Origin: Opitutia bacterium UBA977 | GTDB lineage: Bacteria > Verrucomicrobiota > Verrucomicrobiia > Opitutales > Coraliomargaritaceae | Length of the DNA stretch: 21,728 bases | Assembly (NCBI GenBank): GCA_002292345.1 | Contig: DBBT01000049.1 | Coordinates: forward strand, 458-22,185 | Direction of reading: 5' to 3' | Part shown: positions 9,363 through 20,681 of the stretch, in pieces | Position numbering within the stretch: the first letter of the stretch is position 1 | Layout of the letters: each line of letters opens with the position of its first letter | Program-made: the position numbers and the translations under genes | Notes under the pieces: model-generated | Database searches by the model: none | What the model was told of the DNA's origin: nothing | The model's input: the letters and a program-made list of their open reading frames with translations, nothing else

Positions 9363-12300
9363 TTATCGGAGGCTGACTAGTAGGTCTTTGGAATCCACTT
9401 GGTCGCCAGCTTGAACTTCGACTTTGTCGATGACACCATCGGCTAGGGCGTAAACTGTGGTTTGCATTTTCATCGCTTCGAGCACGAGGAGCTTGTCTTT
9501 CTTCTTCACCTTTTGACCCACGGAAATGGCGACACTGCTGACCATTGCTGGAATTGGTGCGCCAACTTGCATCTTATTTGCAGGATCGGCTTTCGCGCGC
9601 TTTTTGGACTCAGTCTTGATGGACTTATCTAGGATCACGCATTCTCGAGCACGGCCATTGAGTTCAAAGGTCAAGGTGCGTTCGCCATCTTCGTTTGGCT
9701 CTGAGACATAGATGAGTTTTACGATCAGGGATTTGCCTTCTTCGATCTCCACCGTAATTTCTTCGCCCGGCTTGAGGCCGTAGAAGAAGGCTGGCGTAGG
9801 TAACACGCGAGCGTGTCCATTTTGTTTTATATACTTATCGAGGTCGGTGTAGACCTGCGGATACATAAGATAGGCAAATAGGTCGTCGTTGTTGATCTCG
9901 CGCTTGAACTGTTTGCTGATTTCTTGCCGTTTCGCTTCTAGGTCAACTTTCTCGGCGCGCGCGCCAGGGCGCCCCTTGAATGGCTTGCGGTCCCCGAGCA
10001 CGACTTTTTGCACTGCCTTGGGCCAGCCGCCCTTGGGTTGTCCTAGACCGCCTGAGAGCATGTCGACGACGGATTCTGGAAACGCAGTGCCAGGCTCGAG
10101 GTTGACGAGGTCTGCGGGTTCGACGCCCTTGGTGAGCAAGAACATTGCAAGATCGCCGACGACTTTTGAGGATGGAGTGACTTTGACGATGTCGCCAAGT
10201 AAGTGATTTACTTCGTGGTAGTAGCGCACGACTTCGGGCCAGCGCGCGCCGAGTCCAAGGGCACGGGCTTGCTCACGAAGGTTCGTGTATTGGCCACCTG
10301 GCATTTCGTGTGTGTATACCTCGGCGGATCCGAACTTTGGGCTGGTATCAAAGGGACCGTAGAATTGGCGAACCGCTTCCCAGTAGATCGATAGTTCATT
10401 GAGAAACTGAAGATCCAGACCTGTATCGCGTTTGTCGCCGCGCAATGCGTTGACGATAGAGTTGAGGTTTGGTTGCGACGTGAGGCCTGACAGCGACGCG
10501 GTAGCAAGGTCGACGACATCAACGCCGGCTTCCGCTGCCTTGATGATCGAGGCTCCAGCGATGCCGGAAGAGTCGTGCGTATGAAAATGCACAGGGATGG
10601 CGATTTCGCTGCGCAGCGCTTTAACGAGTTTGAATACTGCGTGTGGAGTACAGAGGCCTGACATGTCTTTGAGTGCGAGGACGTGTGCGCCCATCTGCTC
10701 GAGCTCTTTGGCCATATTGACGTAGTATTGGAGCGTATATTTGTCGCGATTGTCGTCCAAGATATCACCTGTATAACAGATAGTGGCCTCACACACGGAG
10801 TTGGTGTCCTTGCGGATCGACTCCATCGCTACTTTTAAGTTGGGCAAATAGTTGAGCGAATCGAAGACGCGAAAAATATCCATGCCCGACTCAGCAGAGT
10901 GCTTAATGAAACCGCGAATCACATTGTCGGGATAGTTGGAGTAGCCCACTCCGTTTGCGCCGCGCAGTAGCATTTGGAAGCAAATGTTCGGAATGCGCTC
11001 GCGTAGTCGGCGAAGGCGCTTGAATGGGTTCTCATGCAGGAAGCGCATGGAGGTGTCGAAGGTGGCACCGCCCCAGCACTCCAGTGAGTATAGGTCGCCT
11101 GCGCGCTGTGCGATAGCGTCGGCCACCTTGAGTTGGTCGTAACTGCGCATGCGGGCCGCGAGTAGTGACTGGTGGGCGTCACGCATCGTGGTATCAGTGA
11201 CGAGTAGCTTCTTCTGATTGCGGGTCCACTGAGCGAATTTCTCTGGGCCGTGCTTGGTTAGGTAATCCTTAGTGCCCTTGGGCAGTGAGTGCGTGTGGTC
11301 GTACTTTGGAATGATCACCGGCAAATCCATTACAGGCACGGGACGGCCTTTGACTTGGTCGTTGCCGTTGACGATCGTTTCTCCGAGCAAGTTTAAGAGC
11401 TTAGTTGCACGGTCACGACGGCGCTTAAAGTTGAAGAGCTCCTTGGAGGTGTCGATCAGTGTGGTGGTCGCTTGGCCTGATACGAAGATCGGGTGGTTGA
11501 CCACATTTTCGATGAAAGGGATGTTGGTCTTCACGCCGCGGATGCGCATTTCGCTAAGCGCACGGTCCATGCGCTGAATCGCGAGTTCGAAGGTGCTGGC
11601 AGATGCGGTGAGTTTGACTAGAAGGGAATCGTAGAAGGGAGTGATAATTGCTCCGGTATCGCCCATTGCTCCGTCGAGTCGGATACCGAGCCCTGCTGCC
11701 GAGCGGTAGTTGACGATTTTGCCATAGTCGGGGGCAAAGTTCTTCTCTGGATCTTCCGTGGTAATCCGTGCTTGAATTGCAACGCCGTTGCGTGGGACGT
11801 CTTGTTGCTGAGGAATGCCGACTTCTTTGGAGTGTAGGCTGTGTCCTTGGGCAATTAGAATTTGGCTACGCACGATGTCGATGCCTGTAATGACTTCGGT
11901 AACGGTGTGCTCGACCTGAATGCGTGGATTCATTTCGATGAAGAACCACTCGTCGCAATCAAGGTCGTAGAGAAATTCGACAGTACCAGCGCTATAGTAG
12001 CCAATTGACTTAGCGATTTTGACGGCAGCATCGCAGAGTTCAGCGCGCACGTCGTCGGGCAAACCAATTGATGGCGCAATTTCGACGACTTTTTGGTGGC
12101 GGCGCTGCACAGAGCAGTCGCGCTCATGCAGATGTACGACATTGCCCTGCTTATCGCCTAAAATTTGCACTTCGATGTGTTTGGCGCGCTCGATATAGCG
12201 CTCAAGGAATACAGCTGAATTGCCAAACGCGCGTTGCGCTTCGCCCTGTGCCTCTTCGAGGGAGTCCTTCAAGTTTTTAGGATCTTTCACCACACGCATC

Positions 12301-12800
12301 CCGCGGCCGCCGCCACCAAAGGCTGCCTTAATGATGAGTGGAAAGCCGATTTTCTTGGCAGTTTTGAGCGCTGCGTCTGGATCAGAAATCGGGTCTTCGG
12401 TGCCAGGTAGTGTAGGGACGTTTGCTTGATCAGCTATCTTGCGTGCCTCGATTTTATCTCCCATGCGGGCGAGTAAGTCAGAGCTTGGGCCAACAAAAGT
12501 GATGCCATTTTCTTCACATGAGCTCGCGAAGTTAGCATTCTCGGAAAGGAACCCGTAGCCTGGGTGGATCAGGTCGATTTTTTTGTCTTTCGCTAGAGCG
12601 ACGATGCTATCGATGTCGAGGTAGTCGGCGACTGGACCTTTGCCCGATCCCACTTTATAGGCTTCATCGGCTTTAAAGCGATGAACGCCGAAGCGGTCTT
12701 CATTCGCGTAGATAGCAACTGTGCGGCAACCCATTTCGGTTGCGCTTCGGAATATACGAACAGCGATTTCGCTACGATTTGCGGCAAGTAATCTCTTCAT
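9363..12800 (-). CDS. pyc: Pyruvate carboxylase (single-chain, biotin-dependent)
   Basis: The enzyme makes oxaloacetate from pyruvate, bicarbonate and ATP, refilling the TCA cycle. The 1145-residue chain has the full four-domain order. Biotin carboxylase covers about residues 1-450, with the ATP loop KAAFGGGGRGMRVV, HLHERDCSVQRRHQKVVE and FIEMNPRIQVEHTVTE. The carboxyltransferase covers about 530-800, with VTDTTMRDAHQSLLAAR (about 532-548), a metal-bridging lysine in ALKDMSGLCTP (about 707-717) and HFHTHDSSG (about 736-744). The allosteric/linker part and the biotinyl domain follow, with LEAMKMQTTV, the lysine at 1111 being the biotin site. Length and order match tetrameric bacterial pyruvate carboxylase; the carboxyltransferase domain rules out acetyl- or propionyl-CoA carboxylase. 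It is transcribed alone, divergent from the metal efflux genes. Confidence 0.97.
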   Translation of the reverse strand: MKRLLAANRSEIAVRIFRSATEMGCRTVAIYANEDRFGVHRFKADEAYKVGSGKGPVADYLDIDSIVALAKDKKIDLIHPGYGFLSENANFASSCEENGITFVGPSSDLLARMGDKIEARKIADQANVPTLPGTEDPISDPDAALKTAKKIGFPLIIKAAFGGGGRGMRVVKDPKNLKDSLEEAQGEAQRAFGNSAVFLERYIERAKHIEVQILGDKQGNVVHLHERDCSVQRRHQKVVEIAPSIGLPDDVRAELCDAAVKIAKSIGYYSAGTVEFLYDLDCDEWFFIEMNPRIQVEHTVTEVITGIDIVRSQILIAQGHSLHSKEVGIPQQQDVPRNGVAIQARITTEDPEKNFAPDYGKIVNYRSAAGLGIRLDGAMGDTGAIITPFYDSLLVKLTASASTFELAIQRMDRALSEMRIRGVKTNIPFIENVVNHPIFVSGQATTTLIDTSKELFNFKRRRDRATKLLNLLGETIVNGNDQVKGRPVPVMDLPVIIPKYDHTHSLPKGTKDYLTKHGPEKFAQWTRNQKKLLVTDTTMRDAHQSLLAARMRSYDQLKVADAIAQRAGDLYSLECWGGATFDTSMRFLHENPFKRLRRLRERIPNICFQMLLRGANGVGYSNYPDNVIRGFIKHSAESGMDIFRVFDSLNYLPNLKVAMESIRKDTNSVCEATICYTGDILDDNRDKYTLQYYVNMAKELEQMGAHVLALKDMSGLCTPHAVFKLVKALRSEIAIPVHFHTHDSSGIAGASIIKAAEAGVDVVDLATASLSGLTSQPNLNSIVNALRGDKRDTGLDLQFLNELSIYWEAVRQFYGPFDTSPKFGSAEVYTHEMPGGQYTNLREQARALGLGARWPEVVRYYHEVNHLLGDIVKVTPSSKVVGDLAMFLLTKGVEPADLVNLEPGTAFPESVVDMLSGGLGQPKGGWPKAVQKVVLGDRKPFKGRPGARAEKVDLEAKRQEISKQFKREINNDDLFAYLMYPQVYTDLDKYIKQNGHARVLPTPAFFYGLKPGEEITVEIEEGKSLIVKLIYVSEPNEDGERTLTFELNGRARECVILDKSIKTESKKRAKADPANKMQVGAPIPAMVSSVAISVGQKVKKKDKLLVLEAMKMQTTVYALADGVIDKVEVQAGDQVDSKDLLVSLR

Positions 12801-12897: not shown

Positions 12898-12932
12898 GAA
12901 CCCATCCGCGCGAGCCTTGACAGTATGGGTTC
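12898..12932. repeat. Inverted repeat flanking a TTGACA box upstream of the efflux genes
   Basis: GAACCCAT (12898-12905) and ATGGGTTC (12925-12932) are perfect complements separated by 19 bases. The TTGACA element lies inside the spacer, next to the right arm. The centre-to-centre spacing of about 27 bases could suit a dimeric regulator on one DNA face or an RNA hairpin. Its placement at the head of a metal efflux island makes it a candidate operator. Confidence 0.55.
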
Positions 12933-12947
12933 TATTTTTCATATCTA
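12917..12947 (+). promoter_or_regulatory. Candidate promoter of the metal efflux island
   Basis: A consensus TTGACA lies at 12917-12922. Possible -10 sequences are ATATCT at 18-base spacing (12941) or TATCTA at 19-base spacing (12942), both imperfect. A long spacer is seen in MerR-type activated promoters, but the dyad here surrounds the -35 box and is not between the boxes. If used, the transcript would begin close to the TTG start at 12956 and be nearly leaderless. Confidence 0.4.
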
Positions 12948-12955
12948 ACTACTTC

Positions 12956-13384
12956 TTGATCAAGAAATCGACAGTTATATGGCTGCTTAGCCTATTTGTT
13001 TGGAACGTCGCGTTAGCCGAGGTCCCGAGTTTGTTGCTGTGCTTGCACCATGATTTTGAGGTGCATGTTGAGTCTGCGGATCAGGAGCATGGGCATTGCG
13101 GAGATGAGCACGTACACGTTGAGTCCCAAGAGGTGGGACTGTGTATTGATAAAGATGATTGCACCGATCTCGAATTGCAGGGTGGTGAGCAAATCCCATC
13201 ACGCTTAAATGAAGTGCACTCGGTTAATTTACCGATGCTCGCTGTGGCTGAATATAACTTTCATGCTCTGATCGTCCGACCATTGGAGGTCTTGAGTTCG
13301 ATGTTTCCACGGCCGCGCGGACCGCCGCTGTCGGTGCATTGGTTGACCGATCGCTATATTCAGAAGACAGTCCTTCGGGTCTGA
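12956..13384 (+). CDS. Secreted His/Cys/Asp-rich protein at the head of the metal efflux island
   Basis: I do not recognise a named family. From TTG 12956 the 142-residue product starts MIKKSTVIWLLSLFVWNVALA|E, a good Sec signal peptide cut near residue 21. An earlier in-frame TTG at 12917 is also open but coincides with the TTGACA box and gives a worse N-terminus. The mature N-terminal half is dense in metal ligands: His at 31, 32, 37, 45, 47, 52 and 54, Cys at 29, 48, 63 and 69, and an acidic run CIDKDDCTDLEL (63-74). The C-terminal half is ordinary and ends with PRPRGPPLSVHWLTDRY. It precedes the outer-membrane channel gene by 94 bases on the same strand. Small periplasmic metal-binding proteins next to HME-RND operons (CusF, CzcE, CzcI, SilE) are known, but no similarity to these is claimed. 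A role in periplasmic metal binding or sensing is inference. Confidence 0.7.
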   Translation: MIKKSTVIWLLSLFVWNVALAEVPSLLLCLHHDFEVHVESADQEHGHCGDEHVHVESQEVGLCIDKDDCTDLELQGGEQIPSRLNEVHSVNLPMLAVAEYNFHALIVRPLEVLSSMFPRPRGPPLSVHWLTDRYIQKTVLRV

Positions 13385-13385
13385 T

Positions 13386-13478
13386 ATCCTAATACACACT
13401 TAGCTTTTCTGGTTTAATCAAACCAGTTGTATTTGTAGCACTACGCTACGCCTCAGCTTCATTGTATTAGGATTTTTT
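13386..13478 (+). promoter_or_regulatory. Candidate structured RNA leader of the efflux channel gene
   Basis: An 11-bp perfect closing stem joins ATCCTAATACA (13386-13396) to TGTATTAGGAT (13463-13473). Inside are CTGGTTT/AAACCAG (13409-13415 / 13420-13426, AATC loop) and GTAGC/GCTAC (13435-13439 / 13445-13449, 5-base loop), giving a possible three-way junction. The closing stem's 3' arm contains AGGA (13469-13472), which is 6 bases from the ATG at 13479, and is followed by six T's. The structure could hide the ribosome site or act as an intrinsic terminator. It could also simply end the upstream transcript. Confidence 0.5.
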
Positions 13479-14756
13479 ATGGTTAACTTTTTGAAATTAA
13501 AACGCGCTGGCGCGTTCGTCCTCATCGCCCAATCGATGTTGACTAGCCTGGTCGCCGCACCGCTCTCGCTTAGCAAAGAGCAAGCAGTGGCACGTGCATT
13601 GCAGCAGAACCCAGCGCTTAACGCGGCGCGCACCACGATCGATCGTGCGCTAGGCAATCACCAGCAAGCGGGCCGCTGGGCGAACCCAGAGCTCAGTATT
13701 GATTACGCTACCGATCAGACCTTCAACGACGAAGGGGAGTATGGTTACTCCATTGGCTTCGTACAGCGCTTTCCCGTAACGAACCGACTGCGCCTGCAAA
13801 AGTCGATCGCGCAAGATGAGATTGAGCTGGCGGCAGCGGAAGTTGCCAATCAAGTGCGACTGCTCACGCTCGAGGTTGAGACCACGGTCGCTGCTGCGAC
13901 TGCCCTAGAAGCTCAAATCGAATTACGGGACGAACGCCTGCAGCTGAATCGTAAATTCGCAGCGTTCATGGAGTCGCGGGTTCGGACCGGGGAAGTCTCT
14001 TCAGTCGAGACCAATCAAGTACAGATCGAACTCTATGCGGTGGAACAAGAGAAGCAGGAACTCTCGAATACATTGTCATCGAAACTCGCTAAATTGAAGC
14101 AACTGATAGGAGCTGATGTGGATGCCGAGCTCAGCTTAACTCATCAATTTGAACTGCCTGCCGCGCCGCCGCAGTTGGCGAGCCTGACGCAGGAGTCACT
14201 CATGCAGCATCCAGAATATCGCATGAAGGCGTTGCTGTCTCGTATCTCCGATAAGCGAGTCTCCGTGGTCAAGGCTGAGCGCTGGGCTGATATCGCGGTG
14301 CGTGTATTTTTTGATGAAGAGCGCAGTGTCGATGATCCTGGCGGTTTAGGCACAGATCGTTTCTTTGGCGTCGGTGTGTCAATTCCGCTGCCGTTTTTGG
14401 ATCGCAAAGACGGCGCGATTCTGGCGAGTCGAGCTGAGCAGCGACAATTTAAATACGAACTCGATCGCGTCGGTCTAGAGGTGCGCAGTGAAGCACATAC
14501 GCAGGCGACACTCGCGGTGAGTCTGTATCAGCAAGCGCGCGACTATGATCAACGCTTAACGCAGTTAGTGGAGAAGAACCTTGCCGAGATGAAGTCCGCT
14601 TATGGGGCGGGGCAAATTAACCTCGTCGAGCTGTTCCGCTCACAAGAACAAGGTCTTCGAGTGCAATCTGCCCAACTAACAAAGCTGCACAATTTCGAGC
14701 AGGCGATGATCCGCTGGAAAGCCGCGACGGCCAAAGCACAACCAGTGCTCCAATAA
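13479..14756 (+). CDS. Outer-membrane efflux channel (TolC superfamily, CzcC/CusC-like)
   Basis: The 425-residue protein is the outer-membrane exit duct of a tripartite efflux pump. It starts with a signal peptide (MVNFLKLKRAGAFVLIAQSMLTSLVAA, cut near residue 26-27; no lipobox Cys), then the first OEP repeat with SLSKEQAVARALQQNPAL (29-46) and WANPELSIDYA, where N-P-E-L is the usual beta-strand entry. Long Glu/Gln/Ala-rich coiled coils follow, and a second repeat with HPEYRMKALL, FFGVGVSIPLPF and a final helix pair with YGAGQINLVELFRSQEQGL. The two-fold repeat and length match CzcC/CusC proteins. It is second in the island, 20 bases before the adaptor gene. Unlike its neighbours it has a clear Shine-Dalgarno (AGGA at 13469), and that site lies in a potential stem. 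Confidence 0.9.
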   Translation: MVNFLKLKRAGAFVLIAQSMLTSLVAAPLSLSKEQAVARALQQNPALNAARTTIDRALGNHQQAGRWANPELSIDYATDQTFNDEGEYGYSIGFVQRFPVTNRLRLQKSIAQDEIELAAAEVANQVRLLTLEVETTVAAATALEAQIELRDERLQLNRKFAAFMESRVRTGEVSSVETNQVQIELYAVEQEKQELSNTLSSKLAKLKQLIGADVDAELSLTHQFELPAAPPQLASLTQESLMQHPEYRMKALLSRISDKRVSVVKAERWADIAVRVFFDEERSVDDPGGLGTDRFFGVGVSIPLPFLDRKDGAILASRAEQRQFKYELDRVGLEVRSEAHTQATLAVSLYQQARDYDQRLTQLVEKNLAEMKSAYGAGQINLVELFRSQEQGLRVQSAQLTKLHNFEQAMIRWKAATAKAQPVLQ

Positions 14757-14776
14757 CCCAAATATTTTTTAATTAA

Positions 14777-15904
14777 ATGAAACAAACAAATTTTAATATC
14801 AGCCTGAGTACCATCTGCCTATCGCTACTAAGCGTCACTGTAATCTCGGCCGCTACCGATGCGCCTATTATTCTCGATGCGTCGGGAGTGGCGAATCTTC
14901 GGATCCAAACTGTGGAAGTGGAAGAGCGTGATTTTGAGACTACGGTTTTTGCGATTGGTCGTATTGAAGAAATCCCATCGAAGCACTCCGTGTTGTCCTC
15001 GCGAGTCGCCGGGCGTGTGATCGAGTTGCATGCTTTTGAGGGAGATGCTATCGCCAGTGGCGATGTGGTGGCGACGATAGAGACTCGGCTAATTGGCGAC
15101 CCGCCGCCGCAGGTGCAGTTGAAGGCGCCGCAAGGTGGTTTGGTGGTGAATTCACACATACGCCTCGGGCAACCCGTGCAACCTGATGTCGAGTTGATGG
15201 ATATCTCGGATCGTTCGAGCATGTGGGCGGTCGCGAAAATTCCTGAAAATGAAGCTGCGCGCGTGCAAGTGGGCAGTCATGCGCACATTCGTGTGCCTGC
15301 TCTGGGAGAGTCTTTGTTTGGAGCGACTCTAGTGCGCTTCGGTGTGAATGCCGACCGAGGTGCAGGGGCAGTGGAAGGGATTTTTCTTTTGGAAAATAAG
15401 GATGGCCGACTGCGCCCGGGAATGCGCGTGGAGTTTGCCGTAGTGCTTGATTCGCGTGCGGATGTCTTGGCTGTGCCACGTGCGTCAATTCAGGGGGGGC
15501 CTGCCAATCGTGTCGTGTTTGTGAAGGATTTCGATCTACCTAATGCATTTCTACGTGTCCCCGTAGTGATCGGGGAGCGCAATGACCGATTCGTCGAGGT
15601 GCTAAGTGGTTTGTTTCCTGGTGATGAAGTCGTCACGCAGGGCTCGTATTCCTTGGGCTTCGCTGATGGCGGGCAGAATATCTCGCTGAAGGAGGCGTTG
15701 GACGCCGCGCATGGGCACGAGCACAATGAGGATGGCTCAGAGCTCACTGATGCCGATAAAGCCAAGCGAGCCGAGGCTGAGCACGATCACGAAGGAGAGA
15801 CAGCGACGCATGCGTTGAGTCTGCCACTGATGATTTATGCAGGCGTGTTGACGTTACTCGTCCTGGTCGCTTCACAGCGTTGGTGGAGCCAACGCCGTGG
15901 ATAA
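14777..15904 (+). CDS. RND efflux periplasmic adaptor (membrane fusion protein, CzcB/CusB-like) with His-rich tail and C-terminal membrane helix
   Basis: The 375-residue adaptor bridges the inner-membrane pump and the outer-membrane channel. A signal peptide (to about residue 25) is followed by a beta-barrel/lipoyl core with SRVAGRVIELHAFEGDAIASG (about 75-95), a lipoyl return strand LKAPQGGLVVNSHIRLGQPV, WAVAKIPENEAARVQVGS, LRPGMRVEFAV and the C-terminal membrane-proximal domain with FPGDEVVTQGSYSL. The long alpha-hairpin is short or missing, since the two lipoyl halves are close together. Unusual features follow: HGHEH at 312-316, an acidic linker with HDH at 336-338, then a hydrophobic helix at about 347-366 (LSLPLMIYAGVLTLLVLVAS) and a basic end (QRWWSQRRG) that would face the cytosol. 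A run of seven G's lies at 15493-15499. The pump gene follows 30 bases later. Confidence 0.88.
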   Translation: MKQTNFNISLSTICLSLLSVTVISAATDAPIILDASGVANLRIQTVEVEERDFETTVFAIGRIEEIPSKHSVLSSRVAGRVIELHAFEGDAIASGDVVATIETRLIGDPPPQVQLKAPQGGLVVNSHIRLGQPVQPDVELMDISDRSSMWAVAKIPENEAARVQVGSHAHIRVPALGESLFGATLVRFGVNADRGAGAVEGIFLLENKDGRLRPGMRVEFAVVLDSRADVLAVPRASIQGGPANRVVFVKDFDLPNAFLRVPVVIGERNDRFVEVLSGLFPGDEVVTQGSYSLGFADGGQNISLKEALDAAHGHEHNEDGSELTDADKAKRAEAEHDHEGETATHALSLPLMIYAGVLTLLVLVASQRWWSQRRG

Positions 15905-15907
15905 GGG

Positions 15908-15937
15908 CATGATCTTCATTCAAAATTACAGATCATG
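15908..15937. repeat. Inverted repeat covering the start codon of the RND pump gene
   Basis: CATGATCT (15908-15915) and AGATCATG (15930-15937) are perfect complements with a 14-base A/T-rich loop. The right arm includes the ATG start codon (15935-15937), and no Shine-Dalgarno precedes it. In mRNA this would hide the start codon between the adaptor and pump genes. Whether it is used as a control is unknown. Confidence 0.55.
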
Positions 15938-18900
15938 TTAAATCAACTCATACGATTTTCTCTTTCACAGAGGCCATTAATTTTGGCCTTAGTTGTCATC
16001 GTGCTTGTTCTAGGAATTAAGAAAGCGGTGGAGCTTCCGGTCGAAGTGTTGCCGGATTTGACTAAGCCGACGGTGACAATTTTAACCGAGTCCGCTGGCT
16101 TCGCTCCCGAAGAAGTGGAAACACTGGTGACGATTCCATTAGAGAATTCGCTGATGGGTGTGACGGGCGTGTCGCGCCTGCGTTCGATCAATGATGTGGG
16201 TTTGTCCTTAATCTTCGTCGAATTCGAATGGGGCACAGATATTTATCAGGCGCGTCAGTTTGTGCAGGAGCGTTTGACTGGTGCGAGTGAAACATTGCCC
16301 GAAGGAGTGAGCCCTTACATGACGCCAGTCGCATCGCTTATGGGTAACATCCTGCTGGTTGGATTAGCGGATCCTACAGGCGAGACGAGTCCGCGCGAGT
16401 TGCGCTCACTGGCGGATTGGAAGGTTGCTCGAAAACTTCAATCCATTCCAGGAATTGCCGAAGTGCTGTCGATGGGCGGCGGGGTGAAGCAGGTGCAAGT
16501 GCAGCCAGATCCAGATAAGATGCTCGCGATGGGTGTATCCTTTTTGCAAATACGCGATGCCTCTGCTCAAGCAGTTAAAAATACGACTGGTGGATTTTTA
16601 ACCGAATCGGCTCAAGAGATCATGGTGCGTAATTTGGCGATGACGACTGATCTGGATGAGATCGGTAACACGGTTGTGACGTACGAGAATGATCGTCCGA
16701 TTCGTCTGCGCGATGTTGCTTCGTTGGTGTGGGATATTGAGCCGATGCGTGGCGATGCTGGTCTTGGCACAAAGCACATTAAGCAGGATGGTGCGGTCAA
16801 GGGTTACCCAGGAGTGATACTCAGTGTGACAAAATCGCCGGGATTCGATACCATTGATTTGACTGAGAGAGTGGAAGCCGCCCTCACGGCGCTGCAACAG
16901 ACGCTTCCCGCAGGAGTCGAAGTGATTACGCTCTATCGGCAATCCGACTTTATTAATCTCTCGATTGGAAATCTGGAAGAAGCCCTTCGTGACGGTGCCA
17001 TCATAGTGGGCTTAGTGTTGTTTCTGTTTCTGTTCAATGTGCGGATTACATTGATTACGCTCACTGCGATTCCGCTTTCACTCGGCATCACGATTCTGGT
17101 GTTCGACCTGATGGACTTGAGCGTCAACTCGATGACACTCGGTGGACTTGCCGTGGCGATTGGTATGGTGGTCGACGACGCGATTGTTGATGTGGAAAAT
17201 GTGTTTCGCCGTTTGTGCGAGAATGCTAGTTTATCGAAGCCACGTCCGAGGCTTGAAGTGATCGCCAGTGCCTCGGCCGAAGTGCGCTCATCTATTTTAT
17301 ATGCCACCGTGTTGATCATTTTAGTGTTCCTGCCGTTACTGGCATTGAGTGGCGTGGAGGGGCGGCTATTCTCGCCGATTGCGATTGCAACAATTGTCAG
17401 CATGAGTGCGTCGTTCGTGGTGTCGTTGACTGTCATCCCGGTACTGTGTTCGTTTTTATTAAACCCGAAGGCGGGTAAAATGCATACCGAAGGGGTCGTC
17501 GTGCGTGGTTTAAAGAGGGGCTTTCACAAGACATGGCTCAACTTTTCGCTGTCACAGCCGTTTCTCGTAGTACTGATTACTGGGGTGCTGCTATTAGTCG
17601 CGTATGCAGCGCTGATTTCAATGGGGGGCAACTTTTTGCCGGCGTTTCGAGAACCGACTGCATTGGTCGCAATGACCACTGCACCAGGTACCTCGCTGAA
17701 GCAAACCACCGAACTCTCCGATACTGCGCAGGACTTGCTGCTGCAGATTCCAGAAGTCGAAACTGTGGGTTATCGTGTCGGCCGCGCCGAACGTGGTGAC
17801 CATGTGGTGCCAGTGTCGACGGTTGAGTTTGATATCGAATTTACCGAAACGTCTGATCGGGATCGTGCGGAAGTGTTGGAAGAAATACGTGTCACGATGC
17901 GCACCATCCCAGGCACATTCAGTGCGATGAGCACGCCATTAGCCGACCGCATTGGGCACATGCTTAGTGGTGTGTCTGCGAAGGTCGCAGTCAAAATCTA
18001 TGGGCCTGATTTGAGCGAATTACGCCGCCTCGGCAACCAAGTCACTGAGATCGCACGGGCGATTCCGGGCATGGAAGAAGCACGTGCGGAGCAGCAGGCG
18101 ATGATTCCGCAGCTACGGATCGAAGTCGATCGCGACCGTGCGCTGGCGTATGGCGTGACGCCCGGGCAATTGAACGAGCAGTTGGCTTCCTTGATGGGTG
18201 GCGAAGTGGTGGCCGAAATTTACCAAGGGCAGCGTGTGTATGATTTAGTGGTGCGTCTGCCGCTTGAGTGGCGTGAGTCGCCAGAGCGGTTGTCGAACTT
18301 GTATGTCGATACACTGAGTGGGCAACGGGTGCCATTGAGTTACGTAGCAGAAATTCATCAAGCGACGGGGCCGAATACAATTCTGCGCGAGAATACGCTG
18401 CGTCGTTTCGTGGTCTCGATCAATCCGACGACGGACGATTTGAATGCAGTGGTGGAAACCTTGCAGAGTAAAATCGCGGAGGAGTTGATTTTCCCGCAAG
18501 GCTATAGCGTAGCGTTTGAAGGCGAATATCAGGCGCAGCAAGAAGCGCGGCGTACCATCTTTATTATGTGTGCGGTTATTCTGCTGCTGATCATTTTCCT
18601 ACTCTATAGTTATTTCAAAACCTTCACTTTTGTGTGGCTTGTATTGAGCATCATTCCGATTTCGCTGATCGGCGGGGTCTTTTATACCAGTTTTACATTG
18701 AATAATATTAGCATCGCCACGCTGGTTGGCTTCATCGCAGTGACTGGTATTGCTGCGCGTAATAACATTATGCTGCTTTCGCACTATCTGCACTTGATGC
18801 GTCACGAAGGTGAAGCATTTACGCGCGAGATGGTGGTGCGTGGCACACTAGAGCGACTCGTGCCGATCTTAATGACTGCGATCTCTGCAGGTCTCGCCTT

Positions 18901-19087
18901 GATCCCGTTGATCATGGCCGCCGATGAACCTGGCAAAGAAATTCTCAATCCCGTCGCGATCGTCATCGTCGGCGGCTTGATCAGCTCGACGCTGCTCGGC
19001 CTGGCGGTGACGCCTGCCATCTTCTATACCTTCTTTCAAAAGTCGGCCGAAAAGTCTATTCGCCTAGAAGCCGCAGCTTCTGAGTGA
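15935..19087 (+). CDS. Heavy-metal efflux RND transporter permease (CzcA/CusA-like)
   Basis: The 1050-residue inner-membrane pump uses proton flow to expel substrate through the adaptor and channel. Family features include MLNQLIRFSLSQRPLILAL at the N-terminus, LPVEVLPDLTKPTVTI after helix 1, EVETLVTIPLENSLMGV in the porter domain, twelve expected helices in two groups, ISMGGNFLPAF opening the second half, and IAVTGIAARNNIMLLSHY near helix 10. Helix 4 reads LAVAIGMVVDDAIVDVEN (405-422). D414 and E421 match the D408/E415 positions used for CzcA, while the first CzcA Asp (D402) is replaced by Ala, as in CusA, and a second Asp follows at 415. A third Asp is at 419. The helix-4 motif therefore looks like a CusA/AcrB mixture, but the whole operon and the N-terminus place it in the heavy-metal class. 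Metal specificity (Cu/Ag versus Zn/Co/Cd) is not decided by what is visible. Confidence 0.9.
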   Translation: MLNQLIRFSLSQRPLILALVVIVLVLGIKKAVELPVEVLPDLTKPTVTILTESAGFAPEEVETLVTIPLENSLMGVTGVSRLRSINDVGLSLIFVEFEWGTDIYQARQFVQERLTGASETLPEGVSPYMTPVASLMGNILLVGLADPTGETSPRELRSLADWKVARKLQSIPGIAEVLSMGGGVKQVQVQPDPDKMLAMGVSFLQIRDASAQAVKNTTGGFLTESAQEIMVRNLAMTTDLDEIGNTVVTYENDRPIRLRDVASLVWDIEPMRGDAGLGTKHIKQDGAVKGYPGVILSVTKSPGFDTIDLTERVEAALTALQQTLPAGVEVITLYRQSDFINLSIGNLEEALRDGAIIVGLVLFLFLFNVRITLITLTAIPLSLGITILVFDLMDLSVNSMTLGGLAVAIGMVVDDAIVDVENVFRRLCENASLSKPRPRLEVIASASAEVRSSILYATVLIILVFLPLLALSGVEGRLFSPIAIATIVSMSASFVVSLTVIPVLCSFLLNPKAGKMHTEGVVVRGLKRGFHKTWLNFSLSQPFLVVLITGVLLLVAYAALISMGGNFLPAFREPTALVAMTTAPGTSLKQTTELSDTAQDLLLQIPEVETVGYRVGRAERGDHVVPVSTVEFDIEFTETSDRDRAEVLEEIRVTMRTIPGTFSAMSTPLADRIGHMLSGVSAKVAVKIYGPDLSELRRLGNQVTEIARAIPGMEEARAEQQAMIPQLRIEVDRDRALAYGVTPGQLNEQLASLMGGEVVAEIYQGQRVYDLVVRLPLEWRESPERLSNLYVDTLSGQRVPLSYVAEIHQATGPNTILRENTLRRFVVSINPTTDDLNAVVETLQSKIAEELIFPQGYSVAFEGEYQAQQEARRTIFIMCAVILLLIIFLLYSYFKTFTFVWLVLSIIPISLIGGVFYTSFTLNNISIATLVGFIAVTGIAARNNIMLLSHYLHLMRHEGEAFTREMVVRGTLERLVPILMTAISAGLALIPLIMAADEPGKEILNPVAIVIVGGLISSTLLGLAVTPAIFYTFFQKSAEKSIRLEAAASE

Positions 19088-19134
19088 CATAATCCATCGG
19101 TGCGGTAGGCATGACTTTCATGTCATCGGTTTTT
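19085..19134 (+). terminator. Weak hairpin between pump and last island gene
   Basis: ATGAC (19111-19115) pairs with GTCAT (19122-19126), followed by CGG and five T's, a short terminator-like element. An alternative stem, TGACAT (19085-19090) with ATGTCA (19120-19125), would exclude it. This could lower read-through into the gene at 19164. Confidence 0.3.
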
Positions 19135-19163
19135 ATCTTTATTCAATTAAACCCAAAAATATT

Positions 19164-19670
19164 ATGAAACAGAAAACACAGCTCAAAGTTCTCCTCATTG
19201 CGACGCTAGCCATATTCGGGACAAGCTATTGCTATGCGAGCGCGGGACACGGTCTGGGCAATGGCGGGCATAGCCACGCAACCAGTAAGGTTGCCGCGCA
19301 GAAAGTTCAGGGCGGCCCCAATGGTGGTCGTCTTATCACCATCGTGGATCCGCACATGGAGTTCTTAGTCACGTCCGAGCGCTTGGTGCAGATTACATTC
19401 CTAGGGCGCGATGGCCAAGTCGTCCCAGTAGCTGATCAAGTCGTCTCTGCGGTCGGCGGTGATCGCAGTGCCCCGACGAAGGTGGAGTTTGTTAAAAATG
19501 GTGATGGCTTAATCTCAACCGCAGCGTTGCCAGAGATGAAGCGCATGCCGATCATTTTACAGATCAAAGCGACTCCTGCTGCGCCGGGTGTGCGAGAGAC
19601 ATTTTATTTAAATATGAGCAATTGTCCCAGCTGTGAGTATAAAGAATACGCCTGTATTTGCGGGCATTGA
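19164..19670 (+). CDS. Secreted protein with His-rich N-terminus and Cys-rich C-terminus, last gene of the efflux island
   Basis: I do not recognise a named family. The 168-residue product has a Sec signal peptide (MKQKTQLKVLLIATLAIFGTSYCYA, cut near residue 25). The mature chain begins ASAGHGLGNGGHSHA, followed by GGPNGGRLITIVDPHMEFLV (50-69), a strand-rich central part likely to be a small beta-domain (about 55-150), and a C-terminus YLNMSNCPSCEYKEYACICGH with Cys at 154, 157, 164 and 166 and a final His. CPSC plus CxC-GH could hold a metal or cycle as disulfides. It follows the pump gene by 76 bases on the same strand, with a weak hairpin in between. Proteins of this general shape near HME pumps are plausible periplasmic metal donors or sensors, but that is inference. 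Confidence 0.75.
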   Translation: MKQKTQLKVLLIATLAIFGTSYCYASAGHGLGNGGHSHATSKVAAQKVQGGPNGGRLITIVDPHMEFLVTSERLVQITFLGRDGQVVPVADQVVSAVGGDRSAPTKVEFVKNGDGLISTAALPEMKRMPIILQIKATPAAPGVRETFYLNMSNCPSCEYKEYACICGH

Positions 19671-19792: not shown

Positions 19793-20113
19793 ATGTCTGA
19801 AAATTTTGAAAACATCTCTATCGTAAAAAAAGCCAATGTGTATTTCGGCGGCCAAGTCACTAGTCGCACGGTTGTGTTTGCGGATGGGTCTAAGAAGACC
19901 CTCGGCTTCATGCAGGCGGGTGATTACGAATTCGGCACTGAAGCGGCTGAGCTGATGGAAATGCTCGGAGGCGAGATGGATGTGAAGCTCGACGGTTCTG
20001 ATGAGTGGATCACTTATGCTGCAGGCACTTCGTTTAACGTCCCGGGCGACTCGAAGTTTGCCCTGAAAGTCAAAGAAGGCGGCGCGGACTATTGCTGCAC
20101 TTATCTTGATTAA
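19793..20113 (+). CDS. ppnP: Pyrimidine/purine nucleoside phosphorylase (PpnP, DUF1255)
   Basis: PpnP phosphorolyses a broad range of nucleosides to base and ribose 1-phosphate. The 106-residue protein has the single-domain cupin-like layout: [47 protein letters not shown] and [19 protein letters not shown], ending CCTYLD. It resembles E. coli PpnP (formerly YaiE, 94 aa) with FNVPxxSxF and a final cysteine-tyrosine-leucine region, plus a roughly 10-residue longer N-terminus. It stands alone between the efflux island and convergent minus-strand genes. The ATG has no Shine-Dalgarno. Confidence 0.93.
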
Positions 20114-20312: not shown

Positions 20313-20681
20313 CTAGCCCTCCGGCATTGCGGATGAGTGGTGCTCGACAATCTTCCAGTCCTGACCGTTCCAGCGGTAGACGTAGGTGAAGCGGGCTTGC
20401 ACCGTTGCCCCATCCGCAAAAGCGAAGGTATAGACGCCGGAGTTGATCGCGACATCTTCGAAGATGCGGACGTTGGACTCGTCGATAGTACCTTTCGGGC
20501 CCTTGGCGAGGAACGCGACGAAATAGTCCTCGATTTCTGCGTGATTGTGACGCACCTGGTTGGAGACGGTCGGCAGCAAGATGGCATTGTTCTCGTAGAG
20601 TGCGGCAACATTCTTCGGCTCACCCGTTTGGAGAGCCGCGTTCCATTGGTCGAAGAGTGACGTGATTTCGGTAGTATTCAT
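20313..20681 (-). CDS. SgcJ/EcaC family protein, SnoaL-like / CaMKII-association domain
   Basis: The 122-residue protein belongs to the NTF2-like superfamily with the calcium/calmodulin-kinase II association fold. It starts EITSLFDQWNAALQTGEP and continues VAALYENNAILLPTVSN, IEDYFVAFLAKGPKG, YTFAFADGATVQARFTYVYRW and WKIVEHHSSAMPEG. The WKIVEHHSS ending and the D/E-rich pocket strands are the family hallmark. Members are mostly of unknown activity, and oxidoreductase labels in databases come from distant antibiotic-pathway relatives. There is no signal peptide, so it is cytoplasmic. It lies 72 bases downstream of the dapL stop on the same strand and could be co-transcribed with it. No Shine-Dalgarno is seen. 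Confidence 0.85.
   Translation of the reverse strand: MNTTEITSLFDQWNAALQTGEPKNVAALYENNAILLPTVSNQVRHNHAEIEDYFVAFLAKGPKGTIDESNVRIFEDVAINSGVYTFAFADGATVQARFTYVYRWNGQDWKIVEHHSSAMPEG

Follow-up and report, generated by a model that had tools for sequence, protein, structure and literature searches.

CutF of Rhodobacter capsulatus is described as sensing copper while it is a nascent, exported chain; it carries a Cys motif, its end is rich in Pro, and a stem behind it hides the Shine-Dalgarno sequence of cutO (PMC9973294). According to the same source, CutF-like genes are most often found ahead of genes for outer-membrane channels of resistance-nodulation-cell division (RND) pumps, and CzcI is counted among them. 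CruR of Bordetella pertussis senses copper via CxxC and a RAPP end (PMC9426467). RAPP and RGPP cause robust ribosome arrest, with RGPP being the most stable, and such arrest motifs are concentrated towards the C-terminal end of small open reading frames (ORFs), frequently of secreted type, upstream of metal-homeostasis genes, among others (PMC12992588). Statements on published systems refer throughout to the available parts of the cited texts. Here, these systems are compared with a locus of Opitutia bacterium UBA977 (Verrucomicrobiota), located in a stretch of 21,728 nucleotides of contig DBBT01000049.1 (the window). The locus encodes a small leader protein (p1), the channel, adaptor and pump of an RND system and a second small protein (p5). 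As judged from sequences and models, it is probably a metal-efflux operon whose first gene encodes a translational sensor and whose last gene encodes a periplasmic metal-binding accessory.

12917–13384, plus strand: ORF of p1 (probable coding part 12953–13384), a small secreted Cys/His-rich leader protein of no named family
13479–14756, plus strand: channel gene, OEP/TolC-type outer-membrane channel (PF02321, E 6.9e-35)
14777–15904, plus strand: adaptor gene, periplasmic adaptor of the RND pump (PF16576 and TIGR01730)
15935–19087, plus strand: pump gene, heavy-metal RND pump, HME5-like (TIGR00914 with 762 bits, cut-off 701; His623, His675 and VVDDAIVDVEN)
19164–19670, plus strand: p5, a predicted secreted beta-sandwich protein with a His-rich N-terminus

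The initial annotation had listed five genes in this order on the basis of the sequence alone. The ORF list of the window and the Pfam and NCBIfam names of the middle three bear this out. Position 12898, given as the start of the island, is not a gene start. Most likely p1 starts at the TTG codon at 12953, where its homologues begin with M/L-IKK.

Leader protein p1

Neither p1 nor p5 of the window reaches the cut-off of any Pfam or NCBIfam family, in line with the initial annotation, which had left both unnamed. It had described p1 as rich in His, Cys and Asp and p5 as rich in His and Cys, both of secreted type, and the residues are as described. In p1, a signal peptide (assigned by eye) is followed by LCLHHDFEVHVE, HGHCGDEHVH and DDCTD. 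Relatives of p1 number 38 proteins at E ≤ 1 in a first protein search and 57 with a wider profile; 458 proteins are related to p5 at E ≤ 0.01. Both are members of conserved families and therefore not chance ORFs. Scans of members of both families against Pfam and NCBIfam gave weak or chance-like matches, of which that of p5 members to ZrgA is the strongest. NF033807 (CopL) has no match above cut-off in p1 and p5 of the window or in 36 members of the p1 family, and one of 27 p5 members matches at E 0.18, which is below cut-off strength. PF11604 (CusF) is absent from the Pfam matches of p1, p5 and the family members scanned. A family marked by C-x-G-x-DGH-x-x-x-E is approached by weak matches in the phylum such as L206, L209 and L210, and it lay outside what the large protein search retrieved. 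The structure prediction of p1 was not used (predicted local distance difference test 60, predicted template modelling score 0.34).

Profile counts of p1, p5 and pump and the covariance search described below are unbiased solely within the 132 genomes drawn from the order. p1 occupies 26 places in 19 of these genomes; 23 places precede RND genes and three are located at contig ends. In one genome (G089) the channel gene behind p1 was not recognised. The wider profile matches 21 of 387 genomes of the phylum. Some p1-like paralogues (L204, L205, L207, L208) are found 0.8–1.3 kb downstream of a pump.

The C-terminal region of p1 carries an arrest-like motif.

13316–13327, plus strand: RGPP codons of window p1, arrest-like motif 18 residues before the C-terminus

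Of 59 unique p1 ORFs, 40 carry the pattern [RQH][AG]PP at a distance of 16–18 residues from the C-terminus (RAPP in 21, RGPP in 10 and QAPP in nine), 34 of them at exactly 17 residues. At least 45 of the 59 end with LR[IVL]. Among p1-family proteins of a large database, 61 of 64 have R[AG]PP within the last 40 residues, against a background of nine occurrences over the 331,297 residues that the other large ORFs at these loci comprise.

When p1 is counted together with other small secreted ORFs rich in Cys/His, such ORFs precede the channel genes of p5 loci in 21/42 and 31/61 cases. Using the same ad hoc cut-offs for hydrophobicity and Cys/His number, such leaders were counted ahead of 7/164 and 5/163 other large ORFs, 2/72 and 0/65 adaptors, and 0/69 and 1/74 pumps. 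Distinct leaders other than p1 have PP within the last 30 residues in 26 of 33 cases, compared with 113 of 1465 control ORFs. Other families of such ORFs are found in the place of p1, directly ahead of the channel gene (L061, L155, L171, L227, L271 and others), with KPPLI, GRFLI, RFGVMRL and RAPSxV as recurrent C-terminal ends.

p1 shares several features with CutF (PMC9973294): small size, an export signal, metal ligands, a Pro motif towards the C-terminus and, downstream, an RNA stem, in p1 a predicted one, that masks a Shine-Dalgarno sequence. It differs from CutF in several respects. Members of the p1 family (22 sequences of the narrower alignment) have no match to PF11162 (DUF2946) up to E 10, a model to which three of five CzcI relatives do match (E 6e-5 to 2e-4). 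Window p1 lacks CxxxC, and its PP motif is 18 residues away from the end. Furthermore, p1 precedes an HME5-like RND operon in Verrucomicrobiota, and its RNA is multibranched and about 94 nt long. CruR lowers expression on copper via Rho-dependent termination, and no Shine-Dalgarno helix is described for it in the available text (PMC9426467). Thus p1 has the working parts of CutF and CruR, but no DUF2946 match, a motif farther from the end and a longer, covarying RNA. It is therefore placed as a variant that, by its sequence, would work like CutF and CruR yet belongs to another protein family; membership of their family is not claimed.

The RNA element and proposed control of the channel gene

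The region between p1 and the channel gene is predicted to form a structured RNA that includes the Shine-Dalgarno sequence of the channel gene.

13385–13478, plus strand: structured RNA of 94 nt from the p1 stop codon to the channel start, with a closing helix around two hairpins
13386–13396, plus strand: 5' strand of the closing helix, beginning 1 nt past the p1 stop codon
13463–13473, plus strand: 3' strand of the closing helix, containing the channel Shine-Dalgarno sequence AGGA (13469–13472)

The predicted fold of 13382–13484 has a z-score of -4.3. Pairing of the Shine-Dalgarno sequence with the 5' strand is found in 39 of 45 p1–channel regions of at least 30 nt (mean z -5.0; the shorter regions of L071 and L203 were left out). 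In the 37 measured cases the closing helix begins 0–6 nt past the p1 stop codon. Near-identical intergenic regions and lengths outside 80–110 nt were dropped before the RNA counts, and L206 was dropped from the alignment. In the alignment of 34 sequences, 93.4% of the cells pair and six of eight pairs change on both sides; shuffles give 83.1% pairing and 2.6 two-sided pairs, and the slid alignment pairs in at most 43%.

A covariance model search of the 132 genomes yielded 21 rows in 15 genomes. The 15 best rows (E < 1e-5, 11 genomes) are all located directly behind p1 genes, and 12 of them are seeds of the model. One place in G033, right behind a p1 paralogue, is matched on both strands (4e-4 and 1e-3). 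Four weaker rows (0.006–0.02) belong to genomes without p1. Low folding energies are missing at channel starts without p1 and at the starts of adaptor, pump and p5, and the RNA signal ahead of channel genes without p1 is weak. In a control with fixed windows, pairing of the Shine-Dalgarno sequence with the distant 5' part alone discriminates (22/40 at p1 regions, 7/29 at adaptors, 23/78 at pumps, 4/17 at p5).

What was computed here comprises gene order, conservation, the RNA fold with its covariation, the pump class motifs, the predicted fold of p5 and the motifs at the C-terminus of p1; from these we infer the following steps. p1 would be exported during its synthesis, with its Cys/His part sampling metal outside the membrane. 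The reach of the ribosome would depend on the C-terminal end of p1, R[AG]PP followed by 16–18 residues to -LR[IVL]. A ribosome arriving or pausing at the p1 stop codon would cover the adjacent bases, open the closing helix and free the Shine-Dalgarno sequence of the channel gene, so that channel, adaptor, pump and p5 would be made. The pump would then export an ion bound by histidines and acids. p5 may bind metal via its CxxC/CxCxH end and His-rich arm, and either buffer it or pass it on to the pump or to the His-rich tail of the adaptor.

Several observations weigh against this mechanism. In the phylum, seven of 38 p1-like places are not ahead of a channel gene (L201, L202, L204, L205, L207, L208 and C51:46491 of G049), and two more weak ones (L211, L212) precede an adaptor-like gene with no channel recognised. 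[RQH][AG]PP is missing from the last 40 residues of 19 of the 59 p1 ORFs, a few of which are cut off. In CruR, RAPP is three residues away from the end, compared with 16–18 in p1 (PMC9426467). RAPP or RGPP in p1 lies 16–18 codons upstream of the stop codon, and a ribosome stalled there could therefore not open the helix itself. On the RNA side, RNAalifold (19 sequences) supports a closing helix of only seven pairs, three of them with two-sided changes, and the inner hairpins are not common in sequence. Eight of the 19 p1 genomes have no covariance model match at E ≤ 0.05 under stricter filters. Simple Shine-Dalgarno pairing does not discriminate in the fixed-window control (24/40 at p1 regions, 17/29 at adaptors, 38/78 at pumps). 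Finally, the last 9 nt of the element contain at least five U in 24 of 37 cases, which is compatible with a transcription terminator as well.

The distance between R[AG]PP and the helix speaks against a simple SecM model and leaves two possible gates: either an arrest at R[AG]PP is released, or the ribosome pauses on the stop codon. A tentative proposal is a two-step gate with a logic opposite to that of SecM and CutF. Without metal the ribosome would be arrested at R[AG]PP and the helix would stay shut; metal bound by the exported part of the chain would pull it free, and the ribosome would reach -LR[IVL]-stop, melt the helix and start the pump genes. p1 might thus be a nascent-chain sensor of a divalent metal, fitting a nickel-type pump, and would control this pump via a covarying multibranch RNA; for this phylum, the searches made here gave no earlier description of such a sensor.

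The U-run and the multibranch fold would also suit a metal riboswitch or a transcription attenuator that acts independently of p1 translation. Rfam gives no match to the element even at a relaxed threshold, only the closing helix is conserved with no sequence-conserved core, and the U-run is missing in the remaining regions. Furthermore, the element begins 0–6 nt past the p1 stop codon, a spacing that a free riboswitch would not need. This explanation is considered unlikely.

Somewhat less doubtful is that p1 acts in trans as a periplasmic metal-binding or pump-modulating protein, comparable to CzcI, and that the RNA reflects ordinary translational coupling. Like CzcI in czcICBA, p1 precedes the channel gene and is a small, secreted protein of similar size with Cys and His residues, and CzcI is reported to quench CzcCBA towards Zn and Co (PMC10127602). 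The p1 family aligns with CzcI of pMOL30 over 80 columns with an hhalign probability of 67% (E 5e-5, wider alignment; controls 20% and 14%). However, most of the aligned columns belong to the signal peptide, and with the narrower p1 alignment the probability is 3%. A role in trans also leaves the C-terminal motifs and the spacing between stop codon and helix unexplained, and CzcI itself is grouped with the CutF-like proteins in PMC9973294. In contrast to p1, CzcI is reported there to lack a C-terminal proline motif. Control of the channel gene by translation of p1 remains the preferred explanation.

The pump and its adaptor

The window pump matches TIGR00914 above cut-off and is thus assigned to the heavy-metal efflux (HME) RND pumps. 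The motifs HAEGVH and HRLDH have been described for the HME5 pump NieA, which is predicted to export nickel; a cyanobacterial copper pump is also placed in HME5 (PMC7060636).

17801–17803, plus strand: His623 of the pump, first His of the NieA-type HAEGVH, present in 50/50 class I pumps
17957–17959, plus strand: His675 of the pump, at the position of CusA Met672 and of the last His of HRLDH, present in 50/50 class I pumps
15677–15901, plus strand: C-terminal tail of the adaptor with LKEALDAAHGHEHNEDGSE, HDH linker and C-terminal membrane helix (about 15818–15874)

The window pump keeps two of the three NieA-type histidines, and VVDDAIVDVEN is nearly always kept in class I pumps, which are defined by the tree below. 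Its identity to the five plasmid pumps compared is 44–47%. HAEGVH is present in the pumps of Magnetospirillum, Methylorubrum and Variovorax, both histidines of the HRLDH site in all five, and the full motifs in three. By its motifs and by this comparison with five plasmid pumps, the pump is HME5-like. A CusA-type (HME4) pump for Cu(I)/Ag(I) was rejected: the CusA site consists of Met573, Met623 and Met672 (PMC8092243), and these are replaced by Ala, Thr and His in the window. None of the 50 class I pumps has Met at the three positions. Because the HME5-like motifs point to a divalent metal, the exported ion, putatively coordinated by His and acidic residues, is more likely Ni2+ or another divalent ion than one of Cu(I) or Ag(I).

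In the pump tree (FastTree, 103 pumps), p5 is found in two groups with a support of 100. Class I comprises 50 rows including the window, 49 of them with p5. Class II comprises 17 rows, all with p5, inside a 19-row group that contains CzcA (support 98). Class I pumps of the order have p1 in front of them, and so do the pumps of a third class (20 rows, 19 with p1). According to these placements, p1 and p5 each accompany different pump lineages. The tree was computed with long-branch warnings, and its sample is biased since loci were picked by p1 or p5 matches. The pump genes of L215 (3764–6922) and L218 (2181–5830) read as several pieces in different frames.

The initial annotation had pointed out HGHEH and HDH clusters in the adaptor. 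These are present and go beyond chance: class I adaptors end in LKEALDAAHGHEHNEDGSE or a close variant, then a linker rich in His and finally a membrane helix. In 49/65 and 59/61 adaptors of two locus sets, the C-terminus contains a helix-like stretch. Short class II adaptors end in GGGHSH, CxCGH or similar. The additional metal sites proposed for p1, p5 and the adaptor are a reading of such residues and are putative.

HME5-like plasmid operons encode a His-rich membrane-helix protein between channel and adaptor, or fused to the N-terminus of the adaptor (L293 2758–3330, L296 2689–3315, L292 2851–4494). In Verrucomicrobiota, unlike these, the His-rich membrane tail sits on the adaptor. The nieIC-cep-nieBA system (HME5) resembles the present locus in part of the pump motifs, in nieI ahead of the channel gene and in an extra exported protein; cep, however, is found between C and B, whereas p5 is behind A (PMC7060636).

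Candidate accessory protein p5 and implications

p5 of the window combines a His-rich N-terminus with a CPSCEYKEYACICGH end.

19623–19667, plus strand: C-terminal CxxC...YACxCxH motif of p5, four Cys and one His invariant in 118 sequences

The His-rich N-terminal arm varies freely and the GG core is invariant. The fold is predicted with confidence as a beta-sandwich. p5 is present in 23 of the 132 genomes of the order and in 46 of 387 of the phylum. An RND pump immediately precedes p5 in 67 of the 69 copies in the genome set and in 74 of the 81 in the named set; the two sets share genomes, and the named one comprises the 80 best of 149 (79 distinct loci). The nine copies that are not adjacent include two with an overlap of ORF and pump (L080, L290), three at contig ends (L218, L246, L256) and two second copies (L250, L252); the remaining ones, L067 and L244, represent one exception (G018). 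Counting from the pump, 21 of 24 places with at least 57% identity in the 132 genomes are immediately followed by p5. Of the remaining three, two are at a contig edge and one is the G018 exception, where p5 is about 15 kb away from the class I pump (L067 5570–6160, L068), near ORFs of FecR type and sigma-factor type assigned by eye. Together with the p1 counts, this agrees with the neighbourhood comparison proposed at the outset: both small proteins travel with RND metal pumps.

The nearest named relative of p5 belongs to a metagenome-assembled genome of Puniceicoccaceae. Two p5 loci (L219, L230) are found in such a genome titled Gammaproteobacteria. A search of the plasmid collection at E 0.01 gave no match to p5. 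The source assembly (2.43 Mb, 139 contigs) contains a single p5 copy and one close pump.

Several known proteins were considered as the origin of p5 and are not supported. A copy of the N-terminal domain of CzcB-type adaptors appears less likely, as 27 members gave no such Pfam match and the structure matches listed include no adaptor. As a relocated Cep, it was compared with P0186, the protein at the Cep position of a Variovorax plasmid, which has no profile similarity (hhalign 0.8%, single sequence). Against CzcE of pMOL30 the profile aligns only 11 columns, with a probability of 21%.

The nearest solved fold is that of Helicobacter CrdA, with modest similarity; it is the best VIA-align match at 7% identity. 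The fold match is weak, and Foldseek ranks CrdA fourth (E 5.6e-3), behind unrelated chains. As in crdAB-czcBA of Helicobacter pylori, a secreted beta-sandwich protein is encoded with an RND metal pump (PMC9182242; operon name from PMC12319023). For CrdA, the available text describes a copper motif that is rich in Met and has neither Cys nor His (PMC9182242), unlike the Cys/His end of p5, and this Met-rich motif is absent from 27 p5 sequences.

The free variation of the arm and the ZrgA (NCBIfam) matches in six of 27 members (best E 3.6e-6), which look compositional, would fit p5 and the adaptor tail being His/Cys-rich appendages of low complexity with no defined role. This is very improbable in view of the invariant GG core and CxxC/CxCxH end, the confident fold, the conserved adaptor motif and the strict synteny of p5 beside two pump lineages. 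Instead, sequence and model suggest that p5 is likely a periplasmic metal-binding accessory and a good candidate for an undescribed one.

Outside the operon, 19793–20113 and 20313–20681 encode a PF06865 pyrimidine/purine nucleoside phosphorylase and a CaMKII-association/SnoaL-domain protein (Pfam). A long ORF on the opposite strand (9363–12800) resembles pyruvate carboxylase by eye. Scans for sigma-70 promoters and terminators gave no signal above chance level.

Among the open-access papers listed by the searches for it, none was seen to describe this combination in Verrucomicrobiota. The proposal of an undescribed periplasmic metal-handling system made in the initial annotation holds for p5 as a candidate. 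It is not supported for p1, whose Shine-Dalgarno-hiding RNA and arrest-like C-terminus fit a nascent-chain regulator of CutF/CruR type better. Because CutF-like leaders ahead of RND channels have already been described (PMC9973294), what is new here is confined to the protein families and the RNA element.

An apparent metal-handling protein, p1, thereby becomes a candidate sensor, and the spacing of motif, stop codon and helix predicts which mutations would break control. If this is true, nascent-chain metal sensing, described for copper in Rhodobacter and Bordetella, would extend to a different protein family and phylum, and probably to a different metal. It suggests that the small Cys/His genes ahead of many RND metal pumps may be regulators. 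p5, in turn, represents a conserved, unnamed family rich in putative metal ligands behind two separate pump lineages.

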